Shown here piece after piece: positions 23,797-63,184 of a stretch of 64,000 bases of DNA. How positions within the stretch are numbered: position 1 is the stretch's first letter; the number at the start of each line of letters is the position of its first letter. The translations under genes were made by a program, and so were the position numbers. Source of the DNA: Saprospiraceae bacterium (GTDB taxonomy: Bacteria > Bacteroidota > Bacteroidia > Chitinophagales > Saprospiraceae); the NCBI GenBank assembly GCA_020627825.1, contig JAHDGD010000003.1, positions 1-64,000 of the forward strand, read 5' to 3'. Under the pieces are notes generated by a model. The model searched no databases and had not been told where the DNA came from. It worked only from the letters and a program-made list of their open reading frames with translations.

Positions 23797-26307
23797 TTAG
23801 AAGGTGTATTCTACTGGTACCCAGAAATAAACATTATTGGAAGTAGGATAACAAAATTCATATTTCTTCCCTAAGTCTTTTATTCTTTCCAGTTCTCTAG
23901 TCTTTTCTAGAAGCTCTTCAATTAGCTTAGCTAATTTATCATCAGGCATTTTCTTTTCGCTTCGAATATCTCCTATTTGAAAATCCATTCGATTACCGAA
24001 CTCAAGCCCTTCTTTCTTTACACCCTGCATCCTAGCAGCCAATTCTGCACTTGAAAACTTCTCTACTTCTTTTTTGGATAAATCATCATTACCTGTGAAT
24101 TGTTTTAGTAGTTCTGTAAATGTCGACATCAATGCCTCTCTTTGCTTATCAGGAGAACTATCATATGCAGAGGCTAAACGCTTTAAGTTGTCTATATAAC
24201 TCACCAAATCTTCATATGGCATAAATAGTACGTAAGAAAGTGAATTATTATCTGCTTTGCCCGGTTTTTTAGCTACATAAATTTCTTTGTACAAGTGATA
24301 TTTTTCATGTACAATTTTCTTTAAATCTTCTTCATCATATCCATTGCCTTTTTTTGCCTTATTTAACAATCGATATACCTCTCGAGCAATTGCTGGCGAC
24401 CATGTTCCAGTAGATTGATCCATTGCATTTCCACTCTCCGTCAAGCTGCTCATTTCATTACGGAATTGATCCACTTGTTGATAAATCTTTTCTACTGATT
24501 CTTCAATATACTTTTCTACATCAGAACCTTTGATCTTATTCTCAAAAGGCGCTTTAATTAATCGACCAAACGAAGGCCCATTTTCAACATTTAAGTCATT
24601 CCCATCTAGTAAATCAGCCATTGAAGGGTTCGCTACAGCAAATCCAGGGAAATACTCCTTCAACTGAACGTAATCTCTATGCTGTCGTTGTGCTGATTCT
24701 AGCATCATAGTTCTTAGTAACTTGTTATATGAAGCAGACTCTCTCGTTCTATAGCTTCTACACTGAATAGATACCATGTGCATATCAAGCTTATCTAAGA
24801 AATTCAATATATCATCACGTTCTACAAGTGTCTCATCTTTCGTTTCTTCAGCTTCGACACTTCTTACAATATTATTTTTGTAATCTCCATAATTACCAAT
24901 TGCTATAATAATATTCGATTCAGAAGTCGAAAAGCCAGCTTTTTTAAGCGTTTGTAATAAACCATAACGAGCTGAAGTCCAGTCGTCAGAATCTTTCCAT
25001 GTATCGAATTGTAATTGATCTACGAAGTTGATCACTTTTGCACGATCTTGTGTCAATTCTTGAATCTCAAATAATTTTCCTACTTCCTTTTCCGGTGTAT
25101 CACGATATACGGATGCTCCGTACTTGATTTTCACATTATCAGGAATATTATTTTCTAGGTTCGCCATTGCATTCATGATGGCTTGCTTATAATCATACAT
25201 TGATCTTGTTCCTTCGATCATGAACATAACATTAATAAACTCTCTTTTCTTATTATTCTCCTCAACATCAGCAGTTATGGTAGCCCATTTTACCTCATCT
25301 ATTTCACTTTGCACAAGATCCATCATAGATTGCGTATTAACTTCCGCAATCGCTCCTGTTCTATAATACTTCTCTGTATTATCGATCATTGGGAATCGAA
25401 CAACTTCACCTCTCAATCGTTTTCCATCACTTGCTAATTCAGCAGGATTTCTAGTGACAGGATCATTATTCCATAATACTTTATCTTCGATTATTTTACC
25501 AGAATTATAATATGCATTTGCACTACCTGGATCCATAAATCCTACAACACGCTTCGATTTATCATTTTTACGCTCATTGAACGCATCATCTTCGAAGTTT
25601 GGCTCAAGTGCAATTCTTGTATTCCATTTGGAAGCTTTCGCTTCTCTTACCCATCCTACTAAAGTCGTACTAATACTTCCACTAGGGCAACGACTATCTT
25701 TTCCTATAAGAAGACGACCATTCTCTCTTTTATAAACAAAGTAAAATTCGTAAATCGTTTTATTCCCTATCGTTTTGGAACCATTCGGAGAGGTGTATAT
25801 TTTCACAAGCTCTTTGTTATCGGAATTGATAACATTTGCCATATCCTTTACTTTATTAAGTAAGAATACTTTTCTATGAATAAGAGATCTTGGATCAATC
25901 AAGCTATTGTTCCATAAGAGTAGTTTGTCTTTTTTAATCCAACCCACATCGTGCTTCAAACTTTTTATTCCAAACTTTCCATCTCTTCTAGCTTTAACTA
26001 CTTTTACCCATTCCTTGTTACTATCGACGACATAAAACCAATCCCCAAAGTTTACGGTACTTTGCTCTCCTGATTTTGCATCGGGTTTAGTATAGGCTTT
26101 GTTATTATCTCGATCACTAATTACAATCCATGGATCATCACTTGATCTTTTATGCTTTGAAGTAAGAAATTCATTTAATTGATCTACATACTCATCATCA
26201 AAGTAATCCAGAGGACTTTCGTAAGCGATAGGTTTCCCTTCTATTCGCTGAGAATAGCTGACAGATAAAAAAGTAAAAAATGCTAGGGTCAATAATATTA
26301 TTCTCAT
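23797..26307 (-). CDS. VWA and SH3-like domain protein, TssR-like
   Basis: 836 aa from ATG 26307, which gives a signal peptide ending S-V-S-Y-S-Q. Residues about 45-115 and 160-230 look like SH3-type beta domains (DWFYVVD..KEWVKVVKA; GWIKKDKLLLWNNSL). The middle holds a von Willebrand A-like domain beginning NVMFMIEGTRSMYD; its metal site is EGTRS instead of DxSxS, so metal binding may be lost. The C-terminus is coiled-coil-rich. The layout and the GW..K.KLLLW element resemble TssR of the Bacteroidota type VI secretion system (T6SSiii). That assignment is from memory of the family and not certain. There are no other T6SS genes beside it. Confidence 0.6.
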   Translation of the reverse strand: MRIILLTLAFFTFLSVSYSQRIEGKPIAYESPLDYFDDEYVDQLNEFLTSKHKRSSDDPWIVISDRDNNKAYTKPDAKSGEQSTVNFGDWFYVVDSNKEWVKVVKARRDGKFGIKSLKHDVGWIKKDKLLLWNNSLIDPRSLIHRKVFLLNKVKDMANVINSDNKELVKIYTSPNGSKTIGNKTIYEFYFVYKRENGRLLIGKDSRCPSGSISTTLVGWVREAKASKWNTRIALEPNFEDDAFNERKNDKSKRVVGFMDPGSANAYYNSGKIIEDKVLWNNDPVTRNPAELASDGKRLRGEVVRFPMIDNTEKYYRTGAIAEVNTQSMMDLVQSEIDEVKWATITADVEENNKKREFINVMFMIEGTRSMYDYKQAIMNAMANLENNIPDNVKIKYGASVYRDTPEKEVGKLFEIQELTQDRAKVINFVDQLQFDTWKDSDDWTSARYGLLQTLKKAGFSTSESNIIIAIGNYGDYKNNIVRSVEAEETKDETLVERDDILNFLDKLDMHMVSIQCRSYRTRESASYNKLLRTMMLESAQRQHRDYVQLKEYFPGFAVANPSMADLLDGNDLNVENGPSFGRLIKAPFENKIKGSDVEKYIEESVEKIYQQVDQFRNEMSSLTESGNAMDQSTGTWSPAIAREVYRLLNKAKKGNGYDEEDLKKIVHEKYHLYKEIYVAKKPGKADNNSLSYVLFMPYEDLVSYIDNLKRLASAYDSSPDKQREALMSTFTELLKQFTGNDDLSKKEVEKFSSAELAARMQGVKKEGLEFGNRMDFQIGDIRSEKKMPDDKLAKLIEELLEKTRELERIKDLGKKYEFCYPTSNNVYFWVPVEYTF

Positions 26308-26400
26308 TTGTATCTCTTTTAGTTCCATAAATTTGGGCAATTTTCTATCGAATGTAAAGTTTTACCCACATTTAATTCTGATTCTGTATTATTTTTATCA

Positions 26401-46396: not shown

Positions 46397-47374
46397 ATGG
46401 ATTTTGCATACGAAGAAATTTCGAAATATGTATTGGACTACCAAATAGACGGAAACCGAGTAGTTGTTGAATTTCAAAATGAAGCAGGAGAAGTATTTGA
46501 CTCATCTGCTATCATAAAAAGATCAAATACTCTGACATCACAAGTACAACGAAAAGTAGGTCGTATGGCGAAAGCACAAGCGAGAAGACATGCAAGCAGA
46601 ATGGTTCGATCTGCATTAGGTGGGGGCATGCTAGGAAGAATCGGTTCTTCTGTTGCAAGATCTTCTATTTCAAATTCTATGAAATCTGCTGAACCAAGCA
46701 ATCATAATGAAACGGATATTAATGATGCTATTGCGAAAGCTTTCAGAAGAGTTTCGCGAAATTTCGGTGTGAAAAGTTCTAGTGAACGCGTTAGTGGTCG
46801 AGAAAGAAGAGTAAGACAAACTGATAGAAGAGGACGAAATGAAGAAAGAGCATTGTCAAGACATGAAGAACTAAGTTTTCAAGATTATCTTGCAAAACAT
46901 CCCATTCAAAATTTATTTGAACAAGATGTATTATCAAGACTGCTTGTTTCAGTTGCACAAGCCGACGGCAGAATAAGTGAGGATGAGCGAAACTTCATAA
47001 TGGAAGCTTTACCAAAAAAACTAGGATCTATTCAAGATATTGCTGCGAGGGGTGAGATTTCATCAGTAGAAGCTGAGGAATTATCTTCCGAGTCTAAAAA
47101 AAGCATCCTCTTATTGGCTTATGCGGTTGCGTTAGTTGATTTTGATCTAGCACCTTCGGAATCGAGAAAACTTAATGAATTTGGTTCATTATTTGGTTTT
47201 TCGCATGAGGAAATGTCGAGCATTGCGACATTAGCTAAATACGAAACAATGACAAGTGTCATGGATCCATTGATGGCAAAAAACGAACTATATGATGCTG
47301 CAGAAGGAATTGGCTTAACACAATCTGAGGCGGAACGTATGTTGATTCAATTCAAAAAGTCAGTATCTTATTAA
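46397..47374 (+). CDS. TerB-like protein with Arg-rich linker
   Basis: 325 aa. An N-terminal beta-rich segment (1-35) leads into an about 110-residue Arg/Ser-rich, Gly-containing linker (RRHASRMVRSALGGGMLGR; GRERRVRQTDRRGRNEER). The C-terminal half (about 165-320) is helical with VAQADGRISEDE and VALVDFDLAPSE, the two acidic loops of TerB-like domains. The basic linker suggests binding to nucleic acid or anionic membrane. It is followed by a perfect terminator. Its relation to the minus-strand operon downstream is unknown. Confidence 0.7.
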   Translation: MDFAYEEISKYVLDYQIDGNRVVVEFQNEAGEVFDSSAIIKRSNTLTSQVQRKVGRMAKAQARRHASRMVRSALGGGMLGRIGSSVARSSISNSMKSAEPSNHNETDINDAIAKAFRRVSRNFGVKSSSERVSGRERRVRQTDRRGRNEERALSRHEELSFQDYLAKHPIQNLFEQDVLSRLLVSVAQADGRISEDERNFIMEALPKKLGSIQDIAARGEISSVEAEELSSESKKSILLLAYAVALVDFDLAPSESRKLNEFGSLFGFSHEEMSSIATLAKYETMTSVMDPLMAKNELYDAAEGIGLTQSEAERMLIQFKKSVSY

Positions 47375-47631: not shown

Positions 47632-48543
47632 CTAGCTGTTATCCAATTGCGGTTCATGAGCATGTTCCAATCCTCCTCCACAATGTGGGCAAATATGACG
47701 ATGAGTTTCTTCTGGATCTTCTCCTCTATTCTTTCTGTCTTTTTCTTTTTGATCTTTTATCGCTTGAACAAAAGATCCCGATAAAATACCAGTAGGCAAA
47801 GCAACCAGGCCTATTCCTAAAAGTGCAATAACGCCTGCAAGCATCTTTCCCATAGGAGTAACGGGATAAACATCACCATAACCCACTGTTGTGAGGGTGG
47901 CAATGGCCCACCACATCGAAGAATAGATATTTGGAAATTGTTCCGGTTGTTGATCATGTTCTACGGTAAAGATGATGGCAGAAGACAAGACTAATAATAT
48001 ACCAGTAATAAATATCGTAATGAATAGCTTTTCTTTTTCTTCACGAATCACGTCACCTATCATCTGCATAGAACTATTGTAACGATTCAACTTAAAGATT
48101 CTCAATAATCTCATAAGTCTTAAGACTCTAATGAAGCGTAAATCAAGCATTCCCGTTTCTGATGTTCCACCACCTAAATGCTGTGTATAAATTAATATTC
48201 CAAGCTCCAAATAGAATGGCAAAATCGCTAGAAAATCGATAATAGCCATAGGTGAAGTAATATATTTCACCACCGCTTGCCATCTATTCAAATGTGGGTA
48301 TTCTAAACTTGCTGTGTAAATTCTTGCGAGATATTCTAATGTAAAAATGACGACCGCAATAATCTCAAAATTTAAAAAGATCGAATGATATTCTTTGGAC
48401 AATATTGCATCAGATTCTAGAATTACAGCTACTATACTAGCTAAGATTAAAATCATAATTCCAGTGCTCAAATAAGCATTTGCTTGGGAATCTGCTTGAT
48501 TATCGTCGTCTATAAGTCGGAATACTCGTTGTCTGAAGGTCAT
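47632..48543 (-). CDS. Voltage-gated-type K+ channel with C-terminal zinc ribbon
   Basis: 303 aa, six-helix channel. S1 about 24-44, S2 about 58-76, S4 a series of Arg spaced every third residue (RFIRVLRLMRLLRIF, 136-150), pore loop with filter TVGYGD (219-224), S6 about 233-258. The C-terminus ends with CPHC (285-288), HRH and HAH, a possible zinc knuckle not usual for this family. It lies 12 bp after the VWA/FHA gene, last in the operon. K+ flux as the output of the module, or an independent passenger, cannot be decided from sequence. Confidence 0.9.
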   Translation of the reverse strand: MTFRQRVFRLIDDDNQADSQANAYLSTGIMILILASIVAVILESDAILSKEYHSIFLNFEIIAVVIFTLEYLARIYTASLEYPHLNRWQAVVKYITSPMAIIDFLAILPFYLELGILIYTQHLGGGTSETGMLDLRFIRVLRLMRLLRIFKLNRYNSSMQMIGDVIREEKEKLFITIFITGILLVLSSAIIFTVEHDQQPEQFPNIYSSMWWAIATLTTVGYGDVYPVTPMGKMLAGVIALLGIGLVALPTGILSGSFVQAIKDQKEKDRKNRGEDPEETHRHICPHCGGGLEHAHEPQLDNS

Positions 48544-48555
48544 AGGGTATTTATT

Positions 48556-50895
48556 TTAACGTTCTTTATACTGCATTTTAGAATTTGAATATCTACCAAG
48601 TTGAATGATGTCATCGTTATTTAATTCAACTTTTTGGTTTTCAGGAATGATTACACCATTAAGAAGAGTTTCATAGAGTGCGATAATGTGTACTCTACCA
48701 TTCTCCAGAATGAGCATAGCATGTTTATCTTCCACATGTTCATCATTCCATTTTATAAACACATAACATTTAGCACTTCTTCCTATAAATACTTCCATTC
48801 CATTCTTCAACCATTTACTTATTGGCTTGACCATGCCATTATATTCTTGTGGAGAAAGATAAATCAATTCGAAATTTTCAAGAGAGGCAATAACTTTTAC
48901 GATAAGAGCACCTAGAATACCTCCTAATAATATGAAGCTAAGAAGCTTCGCTAATTCATCATTGGGAACTAACTCTAAAATTCCAAAATAAACACAATAA
49001 GCAACGATGCATGAGATCACTCCTCCAAGAATTCCTTTTTTCCACTCTATTGTAGAATATATCGATAAAATTATTCCAAAAAGGATGCCATACACTGTCC
49101 AGTTTATTAACCCGCTAAAGAAAACACTATATTGAACATTTCCTAAAAGTGTATATTGTAAAAAGAATCCACTGCCAAAGACTAAAAATGAGATGATAAC
49201 ACCTATGAACACCCTCAAGCTTACTCGAAGTGGTGAAAATTTTCGTGTACTACCTAACTCTTCAGCAACCGTAATCGCTCCTATTAAAGCAGTTCCCAGC
49301 AAGCCACCTTGAAAAGTTTGTTCTAAAAAAACGGACGTATTTTGCGCTATACTGGTAATGTTATTGAAAGCTGCAGTGGGATCTAGACTTGATTCATCAA
49401 AAAATGATTTTACATATTCGTTTAAACCATTCAATTTTGAAATTCGGAATAAACCACTATACAAGATCCAACCTATAAGTCCACCTAAAGAGCCGTACCA
49501 CAGCCAATTGTATATTTTAGAATTACCTTTTTGCGAGAAGAAGGCTGTTTGTGTTTCTTCTCCACCTTTTCCAGGACAAGGGTCTTGAAACTCCATACAA
49601 GATGGAAAATTGGGGCAATATCCTAGAGCATCCCATGTTTCAAGTGTCGTTATTTGATTGCATTTCACAACGACCTTATCACCCTCTTGAATAATATCTT
49701 GTGTTATGGGGTCCCGTTTTATTTTGTTTGCTTCAGGTACATATTTTACAACATGTTTCTTCAAGAATTCCCTTCTTTTAAAAAATGGAAGTAGGTAAAT
49801 AAGTAAGAATAGAGTACCGAATACCAATAATAAGCCGATTAATAATAACAAAAACCAGTTCATTCGATCCTCTTTCAAAACCCCTATATAAACAGGTTCA
49901 ATTGAGGCTCCTATTTTATATTCCTTTTGATCGTATTGTACACCAAAGTCTTTAGATTTCCATTGTAACAGAAGATTTCTTAATTCCCCTCTATATTCAT
50001 TACAAGAAGGTTTCGTATGGAAAACATAATCGTTATTGTACTCTGCTAATTGATCAACCAAAATTTTCGTAATACTACTCGGATCAGATGTAAAATAATG
50101 TTGATCTTCAAGAGCTTCCGTTAAAGACGGTAATTCTTTTAGAAAAGTAGAATCTACTCCATTCCCTATACCATAGGTTAAAATCATTAATTCATTTGTA
50201 ATATCTGCTACTCGTATTGCTTTATATACATCTTTGGATGTTGGTCTTTTCTTGTTATTTAGGCTATAGTAAGGATTTCTGAGGTTATCGTTTTTTCCAT
50301 CTGAAAGCAAAATCAAGATTTGTTTCCCTTCTTCTTCGGATAATTCTTCCACTTTATCAATCATCGCTCTGAATAAGTCGGTATCTTTTCCACCTCCTTC
50401 AGGTGTTGGATATTTACTCAATTCCTCATCTATATTAAATTTATTGATTTTAACGGAAGGAAAGATATCATCATGAAAAGCGGCAAGTTCGAATTTGGAG
50501 CCAACAGGTAGTGAAATCTGATTGATTACATCTTTTATGGTTTGTTTCGATTTACCAAGTCTATCATTTATTTTCATTGATCCACTGTAATCCAATAAAA
50601 ACAAAATGTTGATTTTAGTTTCTATATATCCTTCAGGAGGTGAAGCATTAAATCCAGTGATAGCTAATCTACATTCACCAAGGTCTTTCCCTGGGACTTG
50701 ATCAATAAACTTTATGGTATTTGCATTTATATTCGTATTCGGACCAGGAGGAGCACTTACATAAATATCAAGTATATTAAGCGAATCATCTTGACTGATT
50801 CGAGTAATCTTAATACTATCTTGAGCAGTGAGAATTGGAACAGATAGGAAAAATATAAAAAATGTGAAAAAATATCGTTGAAGGTATAATCTCAT
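48556..50895 (-). CDS. VWA / RING-like / multi-pass membrane / FHA protein (candidate E3 or receptor)
   Basis: 779 aa. A signal peptide (1-24) precedes a periplasmic VWA domain with an intact MIDAS (DYSGS at 102-106, Thr172, Asp199). After a helix (346-371) a cytoplasmic segment at 391-440 reads DPITQDII..GDKVVVKCNQ..ETWDALGYCPNFPSC, matching the spacing of prokaryotic RING/U-box treble clefs but with the first Cys pair replaced by D-P-I-T. Further helices follow (about 463-482, 528-545, 559-585, 590-612, 620-642, 650-672). The C-terminus is an FHA domain (696-775, IGRSAKCYV, H..V...HA). Topology puts RING-like and FHA parts inside. It is 1 bp from the JAB gene. The natural candidate for the missing E3. 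Confidence 0.82.
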   Translation of the reverse strand: MRLYLQRYFFTFFIFFLSVPILTAQDSIKITRISQDDSLNILDIYVSAPPGPNTNINANTIKFIDQVPGKDLGECRLAITGFNASPPEGYIETKINILFLLDYSGSMKINDRLGKSKQTIKDVINQISLPVGSKFELAAFHDDIFPSVKINKFNIDEELSKYPTPEGGGKDTDLFRAMIDKVEELSEEEGKQILILLSDGKNDNLRNPYYSLNNKKRPTSKDVYKAIRVADITNELMILTYGIGNGVDSTFLKELPSLTEALEDQHYFTSDPSSITKILVDQLAEYNNDYVFHTKPSCNEYRGELRNLLLQWKSKDFGVQYDQKEYKIGASIEPVYIGVLKEDRMNWFLLLLIGLLLVFGTLFLLIYLLPFFKRREFLKKHVVKYVPEANKIKRDPITQDIIQEGDKVVVKCNQITTLETWDALGYCPNFPSCMEFQDPCPGKGGEETQTAFFSQKGNSKIYNWLWYGSLGGLIGWILYSGLFRISKLNGLNEYVKSFFDESSLDPTAAFNNITSIAQNTSVFLEQTFQGGLLGTALIGAITVAEELGSTRKFSPLRVSLRVFIGVIISFLVFGSGFFLQYTLLGNVQYSVFFSGLINWTVYGILFGIILSIYSTIEWKKGILGGVISCIVAYCVYFGILELVPNDELAKLLSFILLGGILGALIVKVIASLENFELIYLSPQEYNGMVKPISKWLKNGMEVFIGRSAKCYVFIKWNDEHVEDKHAMLILENGRVHIIALYETLLNGVIIPENQKVELNNDDIIQLGRYSNSKMQYKER

Positions 50896-50896
50896 T

Positions 50897-52975
50897 TTAA
50901 TTTAAATTAGAATTCTCAATATCAACCCACTGGAACCATCCTACTCCTTCTTTTCTATCTGTAGAATTATTCATTCTTCCTGAAGATTGTCTTGTAAAAA
51001 TTGACATATCTAGTCCTTTTGTTAAACTATCAATTTCCATAGCAACTTGATAATCAGAAGGAAAGTGTCGTTGTACGGATAAATCACTTGTAGATAAAAA
51101 CAAACCATGGCCAGGGTGGGTATGGAACCAACCTATAACTTCTAGATCTGGATTTTTATCCTGAGCATCACCTAGTTCATCTACAATTGTTTTTGTACCT
51201 ATTTCTATTTTAAATACATCATTGTATTCAGGAACAAATGGCACAAATTTTTCTACAAGTACTTGTAAAGCATCCTGATGATCAGAAAACCTTCCCATCA
51301 TAAAACCTCCCACCTCTGGTATAGCACCTTGCAATTCGTTTTGAATACCATCACTGGAACTTTCCGCAAGAAAAGCGTCCAAATCACCAATAAATTCAGG
51401 AGTTAAGTATACATTTTGAATTTTGGAATCAAGCCAAATATGTGAAAGATTTAGATTAACTGTTTTGTTAGCATTAACCAACTTTACAAAGTCAGCATAA
51501 GGTATTGGTTTACCAGCTACTTTTTTCTTCGTAATCTTTATTTTTCTAGAGGACAAACCTGTGCTTCTTGCAACTGATGATTTTGGTGTCAATTCTGAAG
51601 CTTTTCGTAATGCTGTTTTTTGTCCAATCACAATTTTTCCTTTCTTTTCACTATTCGATGTTGGGACAGAATCGTTTGTTGTCAATTTCCCAGGTTTAGT
51701 ATCCATTGATTGTTCAGCAGTTACTTTATTTTGGGCCATTTTTTGCTGAATTTTTTTCTTATTCTCCGCTTGACGTTTTTCTTTATTGCGTTTGTTAAGA
51801 AAGGCAAATACACCTAGACTTACCAATAGAAAGCTAAGGGCATAGATCAATAATTTTGTATTGCTTTTTTTCTGCGCTTTATTTTCTAACAATGCCGCTG
51901 TTTTATATACTTCCAATCCTTGTGCGTTGACAATATTCAATTCATTGAATGCTCCTTTAATTCTATTTTCATTCAGTAATCCTGCACTTAGTTCCACAGC
52001 TGAATCTCTGGTAAAAGCAGGTATATTTATTGTATTGAGCAGATTCATTTCTTCTTCTCCTACCTTTTTCAGGTTTAGCTGCAAAGGCATTTCAGTATTT
52101 GCAACCTTGATAATTGAAATGTCATCCTTATGAATAATCGACAAGTTGTATAACTTAAAATCTTCTTCTTCAGGCTCATCTTTGTAAAGACTATCTACAA
52201 TAGCTTTCACATCCTCTACTAATTTCTCATTATCTAGTTCATCAATATCATCAGAATCTGATCCTCTAGCATCAACTAACTTCGATTCATCAAGTTTTTT
52301 TTGCTCTTTTTCAAGCATCTCTCTCGCTTCAATAACAGTTTCTGCTTTATTGGCTAGTTTTACATATCGATTAGCCTTTGGTAATTCTCCATATGTTGTC
52401 AGAAACTCTTCAACTTCGGATTTGCTTTCTGTATCTACTTCTCGCCATATTTTCCCGATGTCACTTGAAGAAAGTTCTTCTAACTTATCAGACGGAGTAA
52501 CGATCCTAAAAGACTGTGTAAACTGCCCTTTACCCCCTTTGTACGTAAAAGGAATATTTAGCTTGACATCTCCTTTACCCTCAATTTCAAAATAAATTTC
52601 ACGAATATAATTTTCGATAGGTTTTAAAGAAACTACTTTTGTTTTCTGATTTATGGCAGCTTTTGCTTTCGAGTCAAATTTAATTTCTTCTGTATCAAAC
52701 GAAATTTCAGGTTGTCCTTCCATCTCATACCATAAGAAGTTACTCATATGGAGAATAAAACTATTTACATCAGATTCCACTTCAACTTCTCCGCCATTTC
52801 CATCGAAAGAAACAGTGGGTTTACCAGGAAGATTATGTTTAAGTTCTACAGAAAACTGACCTACTTTTTTAGTCCCATCTAGAATTTTAATCTTTTGTTG
52901 AGCATGAGATACACTACAAAAAATAAGAAAGATTGACACATAAAAAGCTCTTACAATTGGTTTCGGAGGTTTCAT
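50897..52975 (-). CDS. Membrane-anchored JAB/JAMM isopeptidase-like protein
   Basis: 692 aa. A signal peptide (ending S-H-A-Q), a periplasmic beta-rich and helical region (27-370), one membrane helix (about 375-393), then a basic cytoplasmic segment and a C-terminal JAB domain (about 515-685). The JAMM zinc site is complete: Glu554 (PEVGG), His618, His620, Ser628, Asp631 (HTHPGHGLFLSTSD). JAB enzymes cleave Ub-like chains or mature Ub-like precursors. Between helix and JAB lie two copies of the shared motif (KIVIGQK 447-453; KIKITKKK 478-485). Neighbours: E2 3 bp upstream, VWA/FHA 1 bp downstream. Anchoring the isopeptidase in the membrane is unusual. Confidence 0.88.
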   Translation of the reverse strand: MKPPKPIVRAFYVSIFLIFCSVSHAQQKIKILDGTKKVGQFSVELKHNLPGKPTVSFDGNGGEVEVESDVNSFILHMSNFLWYEMEGQPEISFDTEEIKFDSKAKAAINQKTKVVSLKPIENYIREIYFEIEGKGDVKLNIPFTYKGGKGQFTQSFRIVTPSDKLEELSSSDIGKIWREVDTESKSEVEEFLTTYGELPKANRYVKLANKAETVIEAREMLEKEQKKLDESKLVDARGSDSDDIDELDNEKLVEDVKAIVDSLYKDEPEEEDFKLYNLSIIHKDDISIIKVANTEMPLQLNLKKVGEEEMNLLNTINIPAFTRDSAVELSAGLLNENRIKGAFNELNIVNAQGLEVYKTAALLENKAQKKSNTKLLIYALSFLLVSLGVFAFLNKRNKEKRQAENKKKIQQKMAQNKVTAEQSMDTKPGKLTTNDSVPTSNSEKKGKIVIGQKTALRKASELTPKSSVARSTGLSSRKIKITKKKVAGKPIPYADFVKLVNANKTVNLNLSHIWLDSKIQNVYLTPEFIGDLDAFLAESSSDGIQNELQGAIPEVGGFMMGRFSDHQDALQVLVEKFVPFVPEYNDVFKIEIGTKTIVDELGDAQDKNPDLEVIGWFHTHPGHGLFLSTSDLSVQRHFPSDYQVAMEIDSLTKGLDMSIFTRQSSGRMNNSTDRKEGVGWFQWVDIENSNLN

Positions 52976-52978
52976 TGT

Positions 52979-53779
52979 TTACTTTTTATTTATGACAATT
53001 TTTTTGGGGCCTGCTTTAATTTTTTTCAAAATACTGATCCTCTTTTTTCCATCTGACGGGGTCGTATCATCGGAATCATCAGAAGAAATTTCATCTGGAG
53101 GAGGTTTTTGCTCCATATTGAGTTCAACCTTTTGAACAGTTTTTTCTTCTGCCTCCATTTTAGGTAAAACTGCGTTGTCAATTTCGGAAACGATGCCTTC
53201 AGGTTCACCACCTTTTATAAGTGGTGTATTATCAATAACTATATCTTTATATTTATTTACTATCCCATTGGGTTCAGCATAAGCCATTACCCACTTAGCA
53301 GAATGAATATCTTCTGGAAAAGGAGGAGTGTTTTCAGCATGATATTGCTTATACTGAAGAATTTCACCAATTCTTATAATCAAAAGATATAGATCAAATC
53401 CAAGACCAAAACCTTTTGTATTTCCACAAATTCGTCCTTTGTATTTTCCATCTGACTTGATATTCGGATGCCATACATTAGTTTGCATGTATAATTCAGG
53501 AGCTTCTATTGGATATCGAGGAGGGAAAGTTATTCTTGCTGTATGTTTAAAGCCGTAAACAGGTGTTTGATCATTATTTATAGCAGTAATACTTCTAAAC
53601 AAAAAATGGACATGATATACACATGGAATCTTCAATGGACTTCTTGTTTCTATGACCTCCCATTCTATAACATCACTATCTAATTCGAACATAGACAAGT
53701 GATCTTTTGCTAACCTTTTATAGAAAGGATTCTTTTTAAATAAACCACTGTTAAAATCGTAAGTAGGTTTCTTGTTCAT
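52979..53779 (-). CDS. E2 ubiquitin-conjugating-enzyme-like protein
   Basis: 266 aa. The UBC fold is recognisable at about 15-175: FPPRYPIEAP (E2 'PxxYP..pP'), HPNI (104-107, the HPN triad that forms the oxyanion hole in eukaryotic E2s) and candidate catalytic Cys118 in RICGN, placed 14 residues after His104. This is the arrangement of a true conjugating E2. The C-terminal about 75 residues are charged and disordered, ending KKIVINKK, the motif shared with other proteins of the region. It lies between the Ub-like (22 bp) and JAB (3 bp) genes. Confidence 0.88.
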   Translation of the reverse strand: MNKKPTYDFNSGLFKKNPFYKRLAKDHLSMFELDSDVIEWEVIETRSPLKIPCVYHVHFLFRSITAINNDQTPVYGFKHTARITFPPRYPIEAPELYMQTNVWHPNIKSDGKYKGRICGNTKGFGLGFDLYLLIIRIGEILQYKQYHAENTPPFPEDIHSAKWVMAYAEPNGIVNKYKDIVIDNTPLIKGGEPEGIVSEIDNAVLPKMEAEEKTVQKVELNMEQKPPPDEISSDDSDDTTPSDGKKRISILKKIKAGPKKIVINKK

Positions 53780-53801: not shown

Positions 53802-54086
53802 TTACTCTTTTCCTGGTACAAGTCTAGGTGCTAGGTATAATGTATCTCCATCTTGAATTTGTAAATCAAATAAAGTTTTTGTATCCCCTATTGATACATT
53901 TTTCCTTTTAAATATTAAGTCATAAACATAAGGCTGTCCTTCAGGATCTACTCTAGGAGCTACTTCAGCACTTAATAATTCGTCTTTAATTTCTTTACCT
54001 GTAGAATAAATTGGTAATTCTACTTCAATCTCGTCGCCGCTTGGCATAACTCGAATGATAATCGCAATAACTTCTGAATTCGACAT
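53802..54086 (-). CDS. YukD-like ubiquitin-fold protein (candidate modifier)
   Basis: 94 aa, beta-grasp pattern: strand IAIIIRV, strand EIEVELP, helix KEIKDELLSA, strands YDLIFKR and TLYLAPR, with the turn QIQDGDTL typical of Ub-like folds. The best family likeness is YukD/EsaB, which occurs with E1/E2 in some bacteria. The C-terminus is P-R-L-V-P-G-K-E: a single Gly92 followed by two residues, no Gly-Gly. The JAB might trim Lys-Glu to expose Gly92, or the protein may not be conjugated. It sits between E1 (24 bp) and E2 (22 bp). Confidence 0.8.
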   Translation of the reverse strand: MSNSEVIAIIIRVMPSGDEIEVELPIYSTGKEIKDELLSAEVAPRVDPEGQPYVYDLIFKRKNVSIGDTKTLFDLQIQDGDTLYLAPRLVPGKE

Positions 54087-54110: not shown

Positions 54111-55319
54111 CTAAAATGTTAAATAAGGTTCATCTTTCGTACATTCTACAAAGAAGATATCCTTTTCAGTCTCTACAGTCAAAATCTGTAAAGGTGGCAC
54201 TCCACAAGCTTTCAAACTCACTTTCCCATCTTCGAAATCCTCGCTAATGTAATCAACATATTTCGTAATTCCTAGTACTTCCCCTATTTCTTCTTGATAT
54301 TCTGCTTGGGCAACTTCACTAAAATGAGGTTCAGGAATAAGAACTTTATGAGATTTATCCGTACTCATTGACGTAACCTCCGTGATGATTTTGTAATTCA
54401 AACTTATGGAAATCTGCTCAGCTTTTAGCTGTTTTTTTATTTTTTTAATGGCATCTTCCACTGTGTCTTCATGAGTCAAATTTTTCATACGTATTATCTC
54501 ATCTTTTTGCAATGCATAATGACTTTCGCATTCATCTTTTAATGGAGGAGAAGCAAAATTCACAATCCAATTATTCATCCCATCGTATGTAAACTGTTCA
54601 CCCATCATGGATTTATCCTCATAATTATGAATAATCTTTAAAGCTTCTTGAACTTGCATTGCCGCTATAATGGAAGACGATATAGGTGTTGTAGGCACTC
54701 TACCTGCTGAACTATTCCTTTGCGCAACATCAGCACAACCTAATTTGGTACGAATATTTGCCCAGTCTGTATCCGTCAAAGCACATTCGTAACAAGAAAC
54801 CTCATTTTTGTAAACATTCAATTGACCCGACATATTCAAAATCGCTCCATCAATCCATACTTTGCCTGTCTTATAAGCATAACGGTTTATAAATAATCGA
54901 GCTATCCGATTATCCAAACATCCTATTATCACATCCATTCTGTCGAAAACACCAAGTCCTACATCAATCATAATATCACCATTAACAGCTTGAACGTTAA
55001 TATTGGGATTCATCTCTTTTATTCTTTCTGCTGCTATAAGACTTTTAAACTTGTCTCTTTTTATATCCTTTTCTCTGAAAAGAACTGATCTGCATAGATT
55101 AGCATATTCAATTGTATCAAAATCAACAATAAAAATATTCCCCACATTCATCAAGGCTAAATTCTTAAGTACTTCATTTCCCAATGCCCCAGCACCTACT
55201 ACCATTACTTTGGCATTTGCCACTTTGTCTGCATCCCACCAAGACATTAATCTAAACGTATCGTCCCAGTGTTCTCCCTTCTTACTGATATTCTGAAGAT
55301 TCAATTTTTTCTTTGCCAT
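54111..55319 (-). CDS. E1-like activating enzyme (ThiF/UBA superfamily)
   Basis: 402 aa. An ATP-binding Rossmann fold with VVGAGALGN (GxGxxG at 42-47), the acidic DFD (66-68), N74 and R77 (YANLCR), and CLDNRIAR (134-141), all adenylation residues. CYEC (176-179) would be half of a zinc site, with C264 possibly completing it. GCADVA (Cys195) aligns with the catalytic Cys loop of UBA3/UBA2-type E1s and is followed by VPTTPISSSII..QVQEAL, the typical E1 helix. A C-terminal region (about 285-402) could be an E2-recruiting domain. It would adenylate the Ub-like protein and pass it to the E2. Confidence 0.9.
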   Translation of the reverse strand: MAKKKLNLQNISKKGEHWDDTFRLMSWWDADKVANAKVMVVGAGALGNEVLKNLALMNVGNIFIVDFDTIEYANLCRSVLFREKDIKRDKFKSLIAAERIKEMNPNINVQAVNGDIMIDVGLGVFDRMDVIIGCLDNRIARLFINRYAYKTGKVWIDGAILNMSGQLNVYKNEVSCYECALTDTDWANIRTKLGCADVAQRNSSAGRVPTTPISSSIIAAMQVQEALKIIHNYEDKSMMGEQFTYDGMNNWIVNFASPPLKDECESHYALQKDEIIRMKNLTHEDTVEDAIKKIKKQLKAEQISISLNYKIITEVTSMSTDKSHKVLIPEPHFSEVAQAEYQEEIGEVLGITKYVDYISEDFEDGKVSLKACGVPPLQILTVETEKDIFFVECTKDEPYLTF

Positions 55320-55321
55320 GT

Positions 55322-57307
55322 CTATTTTTTCTTAATCACAATTTTAGGTTTCTTGACAATCTTAGCTTTTGGAGGAGCTGATTCTGTTTTTTCTTTGGGC
55401 TTTGAGCCCAAAACTATCTTTGCTTTTGGTTTTATGGAAACTTTAGGTTTTTTAGGTGCTGGCTCTTCAGGCGGTGCGGAAATCTCTTCCTTCTTTTTTG
55501 CTTTGATTTTGGTTTTAATCACGCGCTTTGGCTTAGGAGCTTCTTCTTGCTGACCTGATTCATCATCACCTTCTCCTTCCAACAGTCTTTTTATCGCCTC
55601 ATCTTCTTCATCCAATGCGGGTTCCATCTCACTAACTTGTTCTTTCTGAACATCATTTTTTGGGGCTTGACCCCCACTATTATCAGACGAATCACTTATC
55701 CCTAGAATTGCAAGTGCTTCTTTTCGAGCATCATCATCTGCCTCTGATCCGCTAGATTTAACATTGATTTTCAAGTCTCGTTTCACCTTCTTTTTCAGGC
55801 TCATCTTTTTCCTTGTCCCATCACTTGCTTTATACTCTACTGGACCATAAGTTTCGATCAACTTATCTATAAAATCCAGACCAAGCTCATATTGCTCATG
55901 TTGAGCACGCGCCCAACTTTCCGTAATCATATCTACATCAATAGTTGCAAACATAGCTTTATACTGAGCTTTTGAAAGAACGGAACGCATCTCAACACCA
56001 TCTATATAATGAGAAATTGCTGCATCAGCTAACTGGATAAATTTAACTTTTAATATGTTGCTATTTTTTATCCACTTCTTTATATCATCCCACTCATCGA
56101 ATAATGAAGCATCATTTATTGACAATTTTTTTCGATCCATGGCCAATATGGTTGGAATCTGCATAACCAATTCACCTAACTGATCCATTGTTATGGCTAA
56201 TATATCGATTGCTTTCTTCCGATCCACGTTTACTGCTTTCAGTTTACGCCCATTGTCATTAATCAGGTGTGGAATAATCCGTTTAAACAATGATTTATTG
56301 TATTCCGACAGATTCGCATAATCCGTTTTTGCCATCGCTAGGCTGTCACCGCCTTCTGCAGCATTCAATAAAGAATCTACACTTTTCGAACCGCTTTTCT
56401 TCAGCCCTCTTGCAACAGCTTTAGATTTCTGACCAGTAGCTCTGAAATAATGAGCTTTTGTAATGGTTTTGTCTTTATGATTTCGCTTCCATTCCAGCCA
56501 AGTTCTAGACATCAACAATTGCAATTTTCTCAACTGATCGCTATCTTGCAGCAACATAAGCATGAGCTCTTTTCCAAGATCATCAGCTACTACACTTTTC
56601 ACCAATTTAGAAGGTGCGTTTATTGCAAGACTTAATCCATTATTATCTAAGAATTTCAGTTTATGCATTCCCATATTCAAAGCCTTGTGAAACTTTGGAT
56701 CTTCTCTGAGTTTTGGAGACTTAAAATCATCGCGATCAAATGCAGTTACAAAAAACAACGGCAATAGTTTTTCTGAGTATGCACGATAAATCAGCCTAAA
56801 GAACTTGTGTCTCTGACGAGGATCAACATCCATATCAAAAACGTCAATCATATCATCTATAGCAATAAGAATGTTGATTTCTCTATCGCCTATAATACGT
56901 TCAATAACCCTTACTAAACCGTAATCATTTTTCATTAGTTGTTGATAAACTTCTTCCTCCATACTGGGAATAATTTTATCACTAATTTTATTAACCGGAT
57001 TTACGATGGCTTTTGCAAGCGCTAAAACAGGATTTGTATCAGGCATCATAAAAACACATCGCCAACTACTCCCATTGTACCCATCAAAAGGTTTCTGTCG
57101 TAAATTTGGAATAAGGCCTGCACGGATAAGAGAAGTTTTACCCATTTTGGGTTCGCCTATTATACTAATAAGTTTACGTTGACGGATCTTAAGTTTGAGG
57201 GTTGAAATATCTTTTTCTCTGCCGAAAAACAAATTGTCTTCATCCTCTAAATAAGGACGATAGAACCCATTTTCAAAACCAGGATATGGATTAACTATTT
57301 TCAGCAT
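55322..57307 (-). CDS. nSTAND1-type STAND ATPase with lysine-rich tail
   Basis: 661 aa, first gene of the operon. Begins NPYPGFENG..YLEDEDNLFFGREKDI, the diagnostic start of nSTAND1 NTPases. Walker A is GEPKMGKTS (51-59) and Walker B is LIAIDDMID (147-155). The middle is helical. From about 515 the sequence is charged and disordered; 588-661 is Lys/Pro-rich with several copies of the shared motif and ends PKIVIKKK. There are no TPR, WD or effector domains, so the tail replaces the usual sensor or effector. STAND proteins act as ligand-triggered switches; a regulator of the pathway is inferred. Confidence 0.85.
   Translation of the reverse strand: MLKIVNPYPGFENGFYRPYLEDEDNLFFGREKDISTLKLKIRQRKLISIIGEPKMGKTSLIRAGLIPNLRQKPFDGYNGSSWRCVFMMPDTNPVLALAKAIVNPVNKISDKIIPSMEEEVYQQLMKNDYGLVRVIERIIGDREINILIAIDDMIDVFDMDVDPRQRHKFFRLIYRAYSEKLLPLFFVTAFDRDDFKSPKLREDPKFHKALNMGMHKLKFLDNNGLSLAINAPSKLVKSVVADDLGKELMLMLLQDSDQLRKLQLLMSRTWLEWKRNHKDKTITKAHYFRATGQKSKAVARGLKKSGSKSVDSLLNAAEGGDSLAMAKTDYANLSEYNKSLFKRIIPHLINDNGRKLKAVNVDRKKAIDILAITMDQLGELVMQIPTILAMDRKKLSINDASLFDEWDDIKKWIKNSNILKVKFIQLADAAISHYIDGVEMRSVLSKAQYKAMFATIDVDMITESWARAQHEQYELGLDFIDKLIETYGPVEYKASDGTRKKMSLKKKVKRDLKINVKSSGSEADDDARKEALAILGISDSSDNSGGQAPKNDVQKEQVSEMEPALDEEDEAIKRLLEGEGDDESGQQEEAPKPKRVIKTKIKAKKKEEISAPPEEPAPKKPKVSIKPKAKIVLGSKPKEKTESAPPKAKIVKKPKIVIKKK
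55394..55412. repeat. TTTGGGC...GCCCAAA palindrome inside the STAND gene
   Basis: TTTGGGC-TTTGA-GCCCAAA within the lysine-rich tail codons. The same arms as the intergenic terminators; a possible attenuator near the 3' end of the first operon gene. Confidence 0.55.
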
Positions 57308-57568: not shown

Positions 57569-58966
57569 ATGAGTAGACCAAAGATTGTCATAAAATCAAA
57601 AGACACACCACAGGATCCTCCACCTAGAACTCCTGTAAAAAAAGAACCCATTCCTGCACCAAAAACAGCACCAAAATCAAAACAACAACCTACACCTTCA
57701 CAAGATGAAAAGATTCCTTACAAACCTATAAATAAAAAGAAGGTTATAGCTTGGAGTGCTGGGGGACTATTCCTTGTTTTACTTGGTGCAGCAGCTGTAT
57801 ATTATTTCTTTTTCATGAAAGATTCTACGATAGAAAAGGAAGAGCTTTCAACGGAAGCAATTGTTTCAGAAAAAAGCACGAATTACGAAGCCGAATATGA
57901 AGATTTTGAAAAAGACATATTAAGCAAATCAACAACAATTCGTTCCTTATTAAATGAAATAGGAATTGCAGGAGCAGATATTTCCGAAGTTGATTCGAAA
58001 CTGAAGGCACTTAACCTAGGAAGACTTAGAAAAGGAGACAAATTCACAGTGTTTTATGAAGAAGAACCACAGATGATAATCCTAGAACCAAAAACGACTC
58101 CTTATCATAAATATGTTATTAATTGTTCGAATCTGGAGGTAGAGAAAGTTGCCAAAAATCGTGAAATTCGAGTAAATGAAATGGCTGCGATAGTTGAAGT
58201 AAACCTAGGGGTTACGTTCATCAACAATAATCTGAATTTAAAACTTATTTCAAAATTGGAGGAGATTTTTCAATATAGTCTTGACTTCTTTGAAATAGAC
58301 GATGGTGATCGATTTAAGATCTTATACGAAACGGAGTATTTGGATGGCAAACCAAATGAGGTATTAGGGATTACTTCAGCATTTATAAAAGAAGGCAACA
58401 AATCCTATTTTGCATTTAGAAGAAAAGAAGGGAATAAAGTGCAATATTACAATGAATATGGCGAATCGTTAAAAAAGTCGTTCTTACAATCACCTATAAA
58501 GTACGGAGGTGTAATTTCATCAGGATTTGGGTTGCGGGTGCACCCAAAGTCAGGGCACACCAAGATGCATCTGGGAACAGATTATGCCGCACCAGAAGGG
58601 ACACCTATTGTAGCCGTTGCAGATGGCGTAGTCACTGGAAGGGCATTTGCAGGGGCTAGTGGAAACTTTGTAAAGCTAAAACACGACGATCAATTTGAAA
58701 CACAATATCTTCATATGCAAAAATTTGAACCTTCTGTTACTATGGGTACGAGAGTGAGGCAAGGAGATGTAATAGGATATGTAGGAAGTACAGGATCATC
58801 AACTGGACCACATGTTTGTTTTAGATTTAAGAAAAACGGAGAACAAGTAAATCCAGCCAATCATAATTCAGGAACTTCAGGTAGAATAAGCCCTATTGAA
58901 ATTGAAGCATATAAAACAGAAATTTCACCACTTCAAACAGCAATCAAAAAAGTAGAATACTTTTAA
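57569..58966 (+). CDS. Membrane-anchored M23 peptidase-family protein
   Basis: 465 aa. Cytoplasmic N-terminus (1-58) opening with the shared motif PKIVIKSK, a membrane helix (59-82), then periplasmic OapA/LysM-like regions (about 120-265) and a C-terminal LytM domain. Zinc residues: His334, Asp338 (HLGTD), His415 in TGPHVCF, with Cys417 replacing the second His of HxH, a change common in Bacteroidota M23 proteins. It probably cleaves peptidoglycan cross-links, or binds them if inactive. First gene of the plus operon; its cytoplasmic tail carries the motif found in the Ub-like operon. Confidence 0.88.
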   Translation: MSRPKIVIKSKDTPQDPPPRTPVKKEPIPAPKTAPKSKQQPTPSQDEKIPYKPINKKKVIAWSAGGLFLVLLGAAAVYYFFFMKDSTIEKEELSTEAIVSEKSTNYEAEYEDFEKDILSKSTTIRSLLNEIGIAGADISEVDSKLKALNLGRLRKGDKFTVFYEEEPQMIILEPKTTPYHKYVINCSNLEVEKVAKNREIRVNEMAAIVEVNLGVTFINNNLNLKLISKLEEIFQYSLDFFEIDDGDRFKILYETEYLDGKPNEVLGITSAFIKEGNKSYFAFRRKEGNKVQYYNEYGESLKKSFLQSPIKYGGVISSGFGLRVHPKSGHTKMHLGTDYAAPEGTPIVAVADGVVTGRAFAGASGNFVKLKHDDQFETQYLHMQKFEPSVTMGTRVRQGDVIGYVGSTGSSTGPHVCFRFKKNGEQVNPANHNSGTSGRISPIEIEAYKTEISPLQTAIKKVEYF

Positions 58967-62665: not shown

Positions 62666-63184
62666 ATGATACACGAAGTTATACCCATTATAGCTGATGA
62701 GCTAAATGATTATTTGGAATCTAAATTTGATACAAGCGATGAGCCTGTATTATTATCAAACATTGTTAATCAAGATGGAACATTAGCAATACGAGAAGAA
62801 AATAAAGTTATCGTATCCTTGATCAACATAGAACGAGATGGGTCAAATCTTTATGGTGGAGGTGGTATGACTGCAGGAGATTTACCAATTCATGTAAATC
62901 TTTATGTATTATTCTCGGCATATTTTACTAATTATTTTGAGTCCCTCAAGTTCATTTCAGGAGTAATTGGCTTTTTTCAAAGCAATCCAAGCTTTATGAT
63001 TGATGGAAATAATATATTAGCCGAGATGCATAATATCGATATAAGAGACATGAGTAATATTTGGACAGGATTTGGTGCTAAGTATATTCCATGTGTATTA
63101 TTTAGATTCAGAACAATCAATATGGATGATGATAGAATCAATGATGAAATACCCCCTGTTTCAGGTTCTGTAATCGACCAATAA
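62666..63184 (+). CDS. Pvc16/DUF4255 family protein (contractile injection system)
   Basis: 172 aa. Opens M-I-H-E-V-I-P-I-I-A-D-E-L-N-D-Y-L, then LLSNIVNQDG, VIVSLINIERD, LPIHVNLYVLFSAYF, LKFISGVIGFFQSNP and LSN-like IRDMSNIWTGFGAKYIPCVLFRFR, a clear match to DUF4255. Pvc16-type proteins cap the inner tube at the sheath terminus of eCIS particles. It indicates that a tail-sheath and tube gene set should lie past 64 kb. Its Pvc16 fold spans the full length. Confidence 0.92.
   Translation: MIHEVIPIIADELNDYLESKFDTSDEPVLLSNIVNQDGTLAIREENKVIVSLINIERDGSNLYGGGGMTAGDLPIHVNLYVLFSAYFTNYFESLKFISGVIGFFQSNPSFMIDGNNILAEMHNIDIRDMSNIWTGFGAKYIPCVLFRFRTINMDDDRINDEIPPVSGSVIDQ

Follow-up and report, generated by a model that had tools for sequence, protein, structure and literature searches.

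The window analysed here, a stretch of 64,000 nucleotides from a Saprospiraceae bacterium, carries a gene for an inner-membrane protein with VWA and FHA domains, upstream of which lie genes for a JAB peptidase, an E2 conjugating enzyme, a YukD-like ubiquitin-like modifier (Ubl), an E1 and an nSTAND1 NTPase (Table 1). Adjacent E1, E2, Ubl and JAB genes with intact key motifs identify this as a Ubl-conjugation operon. The E2 retains the HPN motif and its catalytic cysteine is invariant in the alignment, while the JAMM motif is present in eight of the nine JAB stretches checked. The Ubl ends in a glycine followed by 0–4 residues in all 18 copies listed, as expected of a modifier that is trimmed to its C-terminal glycine. 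An earlier note on this DNA had described an operon with an E1 and an E2 but no separate E3, and this description holds: apart from the segment discussed below, no RING or U-box was recognised in the operon.

Table 1. Features of the window that bear on the analysis.
Feature	Position	Strand	Basis
TssR-like protein (T6SSiii membrane-complex family)	23797..26340	-	Pfam TssR 8.5e-15, TssR_VWA 6.5e-12
VWA/RING-like/FHA inner-membrane protein, 779 aa	48556..50895	-	VWA 96-272 Pfam 2.8e-9, FHA 703-767 Pfam 4.9e-8, TM1 348-366
RING-like segment, residues 391-445 (DPIT ... C440)	49561..49725	-	24-member conservation; AlphaFold2 and Foldseek
C412, C427, C433 and C440, probable single remaining zinc site	49576..49662	-	All four in 17/24 members; zinc binding inferred
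Membrane-anchored JAB (JAMM) peptidase, probable Ubl processing/removal	50897..52975	-	Pfam JAB 1.5e-8, HTHPGHGLFLSTSD motif
E2 conjugating enzyme, catalytic C118, HPN	52979..53779	-	Pfam UQ_con 1.8e-8; alignment; profile vs UBE2K 1.2e-9
YukD/ubiquitin-like modifier, conserved Gly plus KE at end	53802..54086	-	Pfam YukD 8.6e-7
E1/ThiF activating enzyme	54111..55319	-	Pfam ThiF 5.9e-52
nSTAND1 NTPase, head of operon	55322..57307	-	Pfam nSTAND1 1.3e-36; syntenic in several relatives
Pvc16_N protein, start of contractile injection cluster running past the window	62666..63184	+	Pfam Pvc16_N 2.9e-22

The VWA/FHA protein comprises a signal peptide, the VWA domain, a first transmembrane helix (TM1), a basic flank (KRREFLKKH), the segment of interest, further helices and a C-terminal FHA domain. 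With the signal peptide and VWA domain before TM1, the basic flank after it and the FHA domain at the C-terminus, the segment is predicted to be cytoplasmic, as the earlier note had placed it. Residues 391–440 (window positions 49725–49576) read DPIT...GDKVVVKCNQITTLETWDALGYCPNFPSCMEFQDPC, with DPIT at 395–398, GDKVVVKC at 405–412, ETWDALGYCPNFPSC at 419–433 and C440 seven residues past C433. No Ser/Thr kinase domain was detected in the protein with Pfam.

Several features of the locus vary among relatives. The JAB domain is encoded by a separate gene of about 205 residues in several genomes, and at loci L013, L015, L016, L026 and L031, upstream of the VWA/FHA gene, the JAB gene is preceded by between one and four additional genes for secreted paralogues of the JAB protein's N-terminal region. 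In genome G808, one locus holds two E2 genes in tandem (L101:11816–13236), and a different contig carries a further complete locus (L102). In several relatives (L011, L012, L014 and L020), synteny with the VWA/FHA gene extends to the genes for a K+ channel of the voltage-gated type and for a TerB-domain protein (window positions 47632–48543 and 46397–47374). A second, unrelated Ubl/E2/JAB set occurs in other Chitinophagales (L092–L095; E2 match 1e-6 to 1e-7), where no RING was recognised at a glance among the neighbouring genes.

A basic strand motif, approximately K-[IV]-x-[IV]-x-K (PKIVIKKK, KKIVINKK, RPKIVIKSK), recurs at the termini of otherwise unrelated proteins encoded in the locus, at frequencies above those in shuffled sequences. 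In the window it is found at the C-termini of the E2 and the nSTAND1 protein and at the N-terminus of an M23 protein (57569–58966); in some relatives it is also found at the C-terminus of the VWA/FHA protein. Observed and expected counts, for relatives that are not independent, are 12/22 against 3.3 (E2), 4/5 against 1.0 (nSTAND), 6/11 against 1.2 (M23) and 5/20 against 1.5 (VWA). The motif is possibly a shared docking tag.

Conservation and predicted fold of the segment

Relatives were gathered by genome searches and a scan of named genomes, with Saprospiraceae and Chitinophagales as sources. The 24 aligned segments give the consensus DP[IVLM]T...VV..C....L.[TS]W.....CP.[YF]P.C......C, in which D395, P396, V409 and W421 are invariant, T398 is present in 22 members and position 420 is always Thr or Ser. 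Conservation in the segment exceeds the protein average, but is also seen at the beginning of TM2 and in the FHA region. Judged by this conservation, the segment is not a chance pattern, and both the position and the motif pieces reported in the earlier note were recovered exactly. Twenty members have C412, C427 and C440 together, and 17 have C433. Four members (L008, L009, L049 and L053) have no cysteine at any of the four positions. C433 is also missing in L029, L031 and L048, and exactly these three carry a histidine at position 414 (C-x-H; p = 9e-4, hypergeometric, with members treated as independent although the three are probably related), suggesting that the Cys-to-His swap is compensating.

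Comparing the segment by eye with the Prok-RING pattern, we take DPIT to stand for C-x2-C and T417-x2-T420-W421 for H-x2-C-W. Both positions supply ligands of RING zinc site 1, so the whole of that site appears to have been lost and replaced by polar residues, DPIT and TxxTW. The absence of the first Cys pair had been noted before; the H-x2-C pair before the tryptophan has gone too. The remaining C412, C427, C433 and C440 probably form a single zinc site in the window protein. Position 397 (I/L/V/M/Y), W421 and P428 presumably lie near the E2-contact positions of eukaryotic RINGs (I383, W408 and P417 of c-Cbl), with W421 about one helical turn from the position of c-Cbl W408. A linchpin Arg/Lys of active RINGs was not recognised in the segment.

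A model of the window segment (99 residues, 24 sequences) calculated using AlphaFold2 without templates has a mean pLDDT of 68, about 79 for the first 50 residues and about 54 for the second half, and shows a hairpin (KVVVK/ITTL) leading into the helix that bears W421. A Foldseek search of 350,542 PDB chains with this model gave RING E3 entries at ranks 1–16, headed by the PA-TM-RING ligase RNF13 (E = 0.067, probability 0.99, TM-score 0.57 by target, r.m.s.d. 2.5 over 62 columns), with LIM and C1 domains further down the list. The segment of L008, which is 27% identical to that of the window and has none of its cysteines, was modelled in the same template-free manner with a core pLDDT of 92–95; its PDB ranks 1–13 are RINGs (E = 0.62), and RING proteins make up many of the named viral matches. 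With members common to both alignments, the models are not completely independent. For neither model did any Foldseek match reach an E value of 0.001 or below, all being above 0.05, and the fold assignment therefore draws on consistency rather than on one strong match. A RING treble clef is predicted in both AlphaFold2 models, and we regard a RING-like fold as highly probable.

None of the 24 members scored above the cut-off of any RING, Prok-RING or U-box profile. The U-box family (PF04564) was absent from the Pfam hits of all 24 up to an E value of 10, and the SP-RING profile matched no member. The best Prok-RING_1 (PF14446) E value was 0.019, in one member and below the curated cut-off; over that cut-off, Prok-RING_1 searches returned neither a canonical counterpart nor another E3, and nothing in the 20 carrier genomes. 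A search for Prok-RING_4 (PF14447), run without a positive control, found no match in the genome. Solved structures searched by sequence, using individual members as well as the profile as queries, yielded no RING. Pfam, NCBIfam and PADLOC, scanned for named RINGs or defence systems, gave no RING call and only partial matches to E1-E2 and to JAB. Across 297 genomes of the phylum, the segment profile was found only in the VWA/FHA family, with no free-standing version. Of the checks proposed in the earlier note, structure prediction returned a RING-like fold with RING E3 domains as the top PDB matches, and the Prok-RING HMM search stayed below cut-off; the Cys and Trp spacing of prokaryotic RINGs that it had read in the segment is a partial fit.

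Relationship to known RING and U-box domains

The segment has the predicted fold of the RING-H2 transmembrane E3s (RNF13, RNF38 and RNF12) that head the PDB matches, and in RNF13 the RING is likewise cytoplasmic and directly follows a transmembrane helix. RING-H2 domains, however, have eight zinc ligands and no significant sequence similarity to the segment, whereas the window copy has four cysteines and four relatives have none, so neither is an eight-ligand two-zinc RING. The U-box label that the earlier note attached beside RING was rejected: U-boxes are absent from the profile matches and from the structural matches listed, and four conserved cysteines persist in the window copy. The DPIT-like start is shared with U-boxes, and the zinc-free state is shared by only the four cysteine-less relatives. 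SP-RINGs, the domains of the PIAS and Nse2/Mms21 SUMO ligases, have lost the first zinc site and kept one of the second kind, which is the ligand pattern suggested for the segment. They nevertheless gave no profile match and no listed structural match. SP-RINGs bind their single zinc at site 2 through C, H, C, C; the window copy has four cysteines, and a C-x-H is seen in the three relatives that have His414 in place of C433.

Another likeness is to prokaryotic RINGs (Pfam Prok-RING_1 and Prok-RING_4), reportedly described by Burroughs, Iyer and Aravind in 2011. These have a GD.VV.C ... W ... C pattern and a Ubl/E1/E2/JAB context, both of which the segment shares, but the segment falls below every cut-off, lacks the first and third ligand pairs and forms part of a VWA/FHA membrane protein. 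Two ligand pairs are missing from some bacterial RINGs, which keep the ligands of the central hairpin and C-terminus (PMC11354881), a pattern much like that of the segment.

Co-occurrence and neighbouring injection systems

In a single sample of the order (399 genomes), the E2 (E < 1e-70) and the VWA/FHA protein (E < 1e-130) occur in an identical set of 18 genomes, the window's own included; weaker E2 matches belong to other Ubl systems, and one genome (G541) has a truncated, divergent copy of the VWA/FHA protein without the E2. Any gene of an operon that is transferred as a unit would be expected to co-occur in this way. Cultured carriers are Portibacter lacus and P. marinus.

The locus also adjoins a contractile injection system, a setting that the earlier note does not mention. 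The Pvc16_N gene opens an eCIS-type cluster, for contractile injection of the extracellular type, on the same contig with sheath, gp19 tubes, CIS_tube, VgrG, gp25, AAA and PAAR genes; the cluster spans window position 62666 to contig position C253:86884 (L108 and L109). TssR is a T6SSiii membrane-complex family (PMC10781749), and the eCIS cluster and TssR-like protein in one window may reflect a membrane-anchored eCIS-type machine. In relatives, the Ubl locus adjoins systems of the eCIS type (G080, G102, G821 and G679, with the Pvc16 end in G087) or of T6SSiii (TssK, TssG, TssD, VgrG, ClpV or TssN in G118, G760 and G795; TssK and TssN in G768 and G772). Of 20 carriers, 18 have at least one of TssN, TssR and Pvc16_N, compared with two of 20 non-carriers (p = 5e-7, uncontrolled for phylogeny), the non-carriers being those that a listing happened to give. 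VipB (PF05943) was discarded as a T6SS marker; it was silent in all 40 genomes, even those with clear TssN, TssD or TssK, and is hence uninformative in this phylum.

That the Ubl genes usually travel with injection machines suggests that some bacteria control these machines by ubiquitin-like tagging, and we consider the chances that this Ubl system controls contractile injection to be about even. The competing explanation, that the Ubl operon serves conjugation in general or against phages and is unrelated to the injection systems beyond lying in the same genomic islands, is plausible but somewhat less probable. To our knowledge, bacterial ubiquitin-like systems are known mainly from phage defence, which favours it, as do loci without a nearby injection-system marker (G608, G636 and some others) and spacings that in some genomes reach about 50 kb. 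Adjacency within about 3–25 kb nevertheless recurs with both eCIS and T6SSiii in distant genera, and the TssK/M23/E1 or M23/Pvc16 gene order is kept. No PADLOC system (2023 library) was recognised, and literature searches pairing contractile injection systems with ubiquitin returned nothing relevant.

A possible E3-like role

Building on the observed conservation, co-occurrence, intact E1/E2/Ubl/JAB motifs and neighbourhood, we favour, with modest confidence, a derived RING that serves as the membrane-anchored E3-like module of the Ubl system and acts on the neighbouring injection machines. Residues of about 391–445 would fold as a derived RING-type treble clef, and the VWA domain would sense the state of the envelope from the extracytoplasmic side. 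On the cytoplasmic face, the RING-like domain would most probably dock the E2 of the operon once this is loaded with the YukD-like Ubl, and promote Ubl transfer to a membrane target, while the JAB protein would trim the Ubl to its C-terminal glycine and later remove it from the target. The most likely targets would belong to the adjacent contractile injection system, as parts of it or as its regulators, for instance a component at the base of the machine.

The E2-docking, E3-like role of the segment itself seems to us rather likelier than its absence. The earlier suggestion of a missing E3 is partly supported: by the RING-like predicted fold, the cytoplasmic side, the lack of another recognised RING or U-box in the operon and the exact co-occurrence with the E2, though not in its U-box label. 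The RING-like domain might instead recruit the E2 or Ubl without activating transfer, the VWA/FHA protein being a scaffold or a substrate modified directly by the E2 without an E3. E3-less bacterial E1/E2 systems do exist (CBASS Cap2, BilABCD), no linchpin residue is recognisable and the conserved basic tail of the E2 could dock alone; even so, the hydrophobic residue at 397, W421 and the proline or hydrophobic residue at 428 are kept even in segments without any zinc ligand. This suggests that a binding face is under selection, which does not separate docking from activation, and we consider recruitment alone unlikely. Less likely still is that the segment is a structural treble clef or knuckle joining TM1 and TM2, alike to RINGs in shape only and with no part in Ubl transfer. 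The Foldseek E values above 0.05, the LIM and C1 domains lower in the list and the lack of a passing RING profile would suit such a knuckle, but two queries of 27% identity, one of them devoid of cysteines, retrieved the same almost exclusively RING list at the top, and every copy of the protein but one, a truncated one, accompanies an E1/Ubl/E2/JAB locus.

If the E3-like reading is correct, the segment would fill the E3-like gap in a bacterial Ubl system, and the RING fold would have persisted in bacteria after every zinc ligand was lost, as happened in eukaryotic U-boxes. Bacterial Ubl systems would also gain a testable physiological role, the control of contractile injection machines. In its fullest form, which we put forward only tentatively, the proposal is that contractile injection systems of both kinds, eCIS and T6SSiii, are regulated through reversible modification with the YukD-like protein by a bacterial ubiquitin ligase of receptor type, which combines an extracytoplasmic VWA domain, a RING poor in or free of zinc and an FHA domain. 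Such a system would be a ubiquitin-style counterpart to the PpkA/Fha/PppA phosphorylation switch of proteobacterial T6SS. PpkA is a transmembrane kinase with an extracellular VWA domain encoded in a T6SS locus (PMC3224232). A transmembrane VWA regulator, an FHA component and a writer and eraser are common to both, but here the writer would be the RING with E1/E2 and the eraser JAB; no homology is claimed, and the likeness to PpkA is one of arrangement only.
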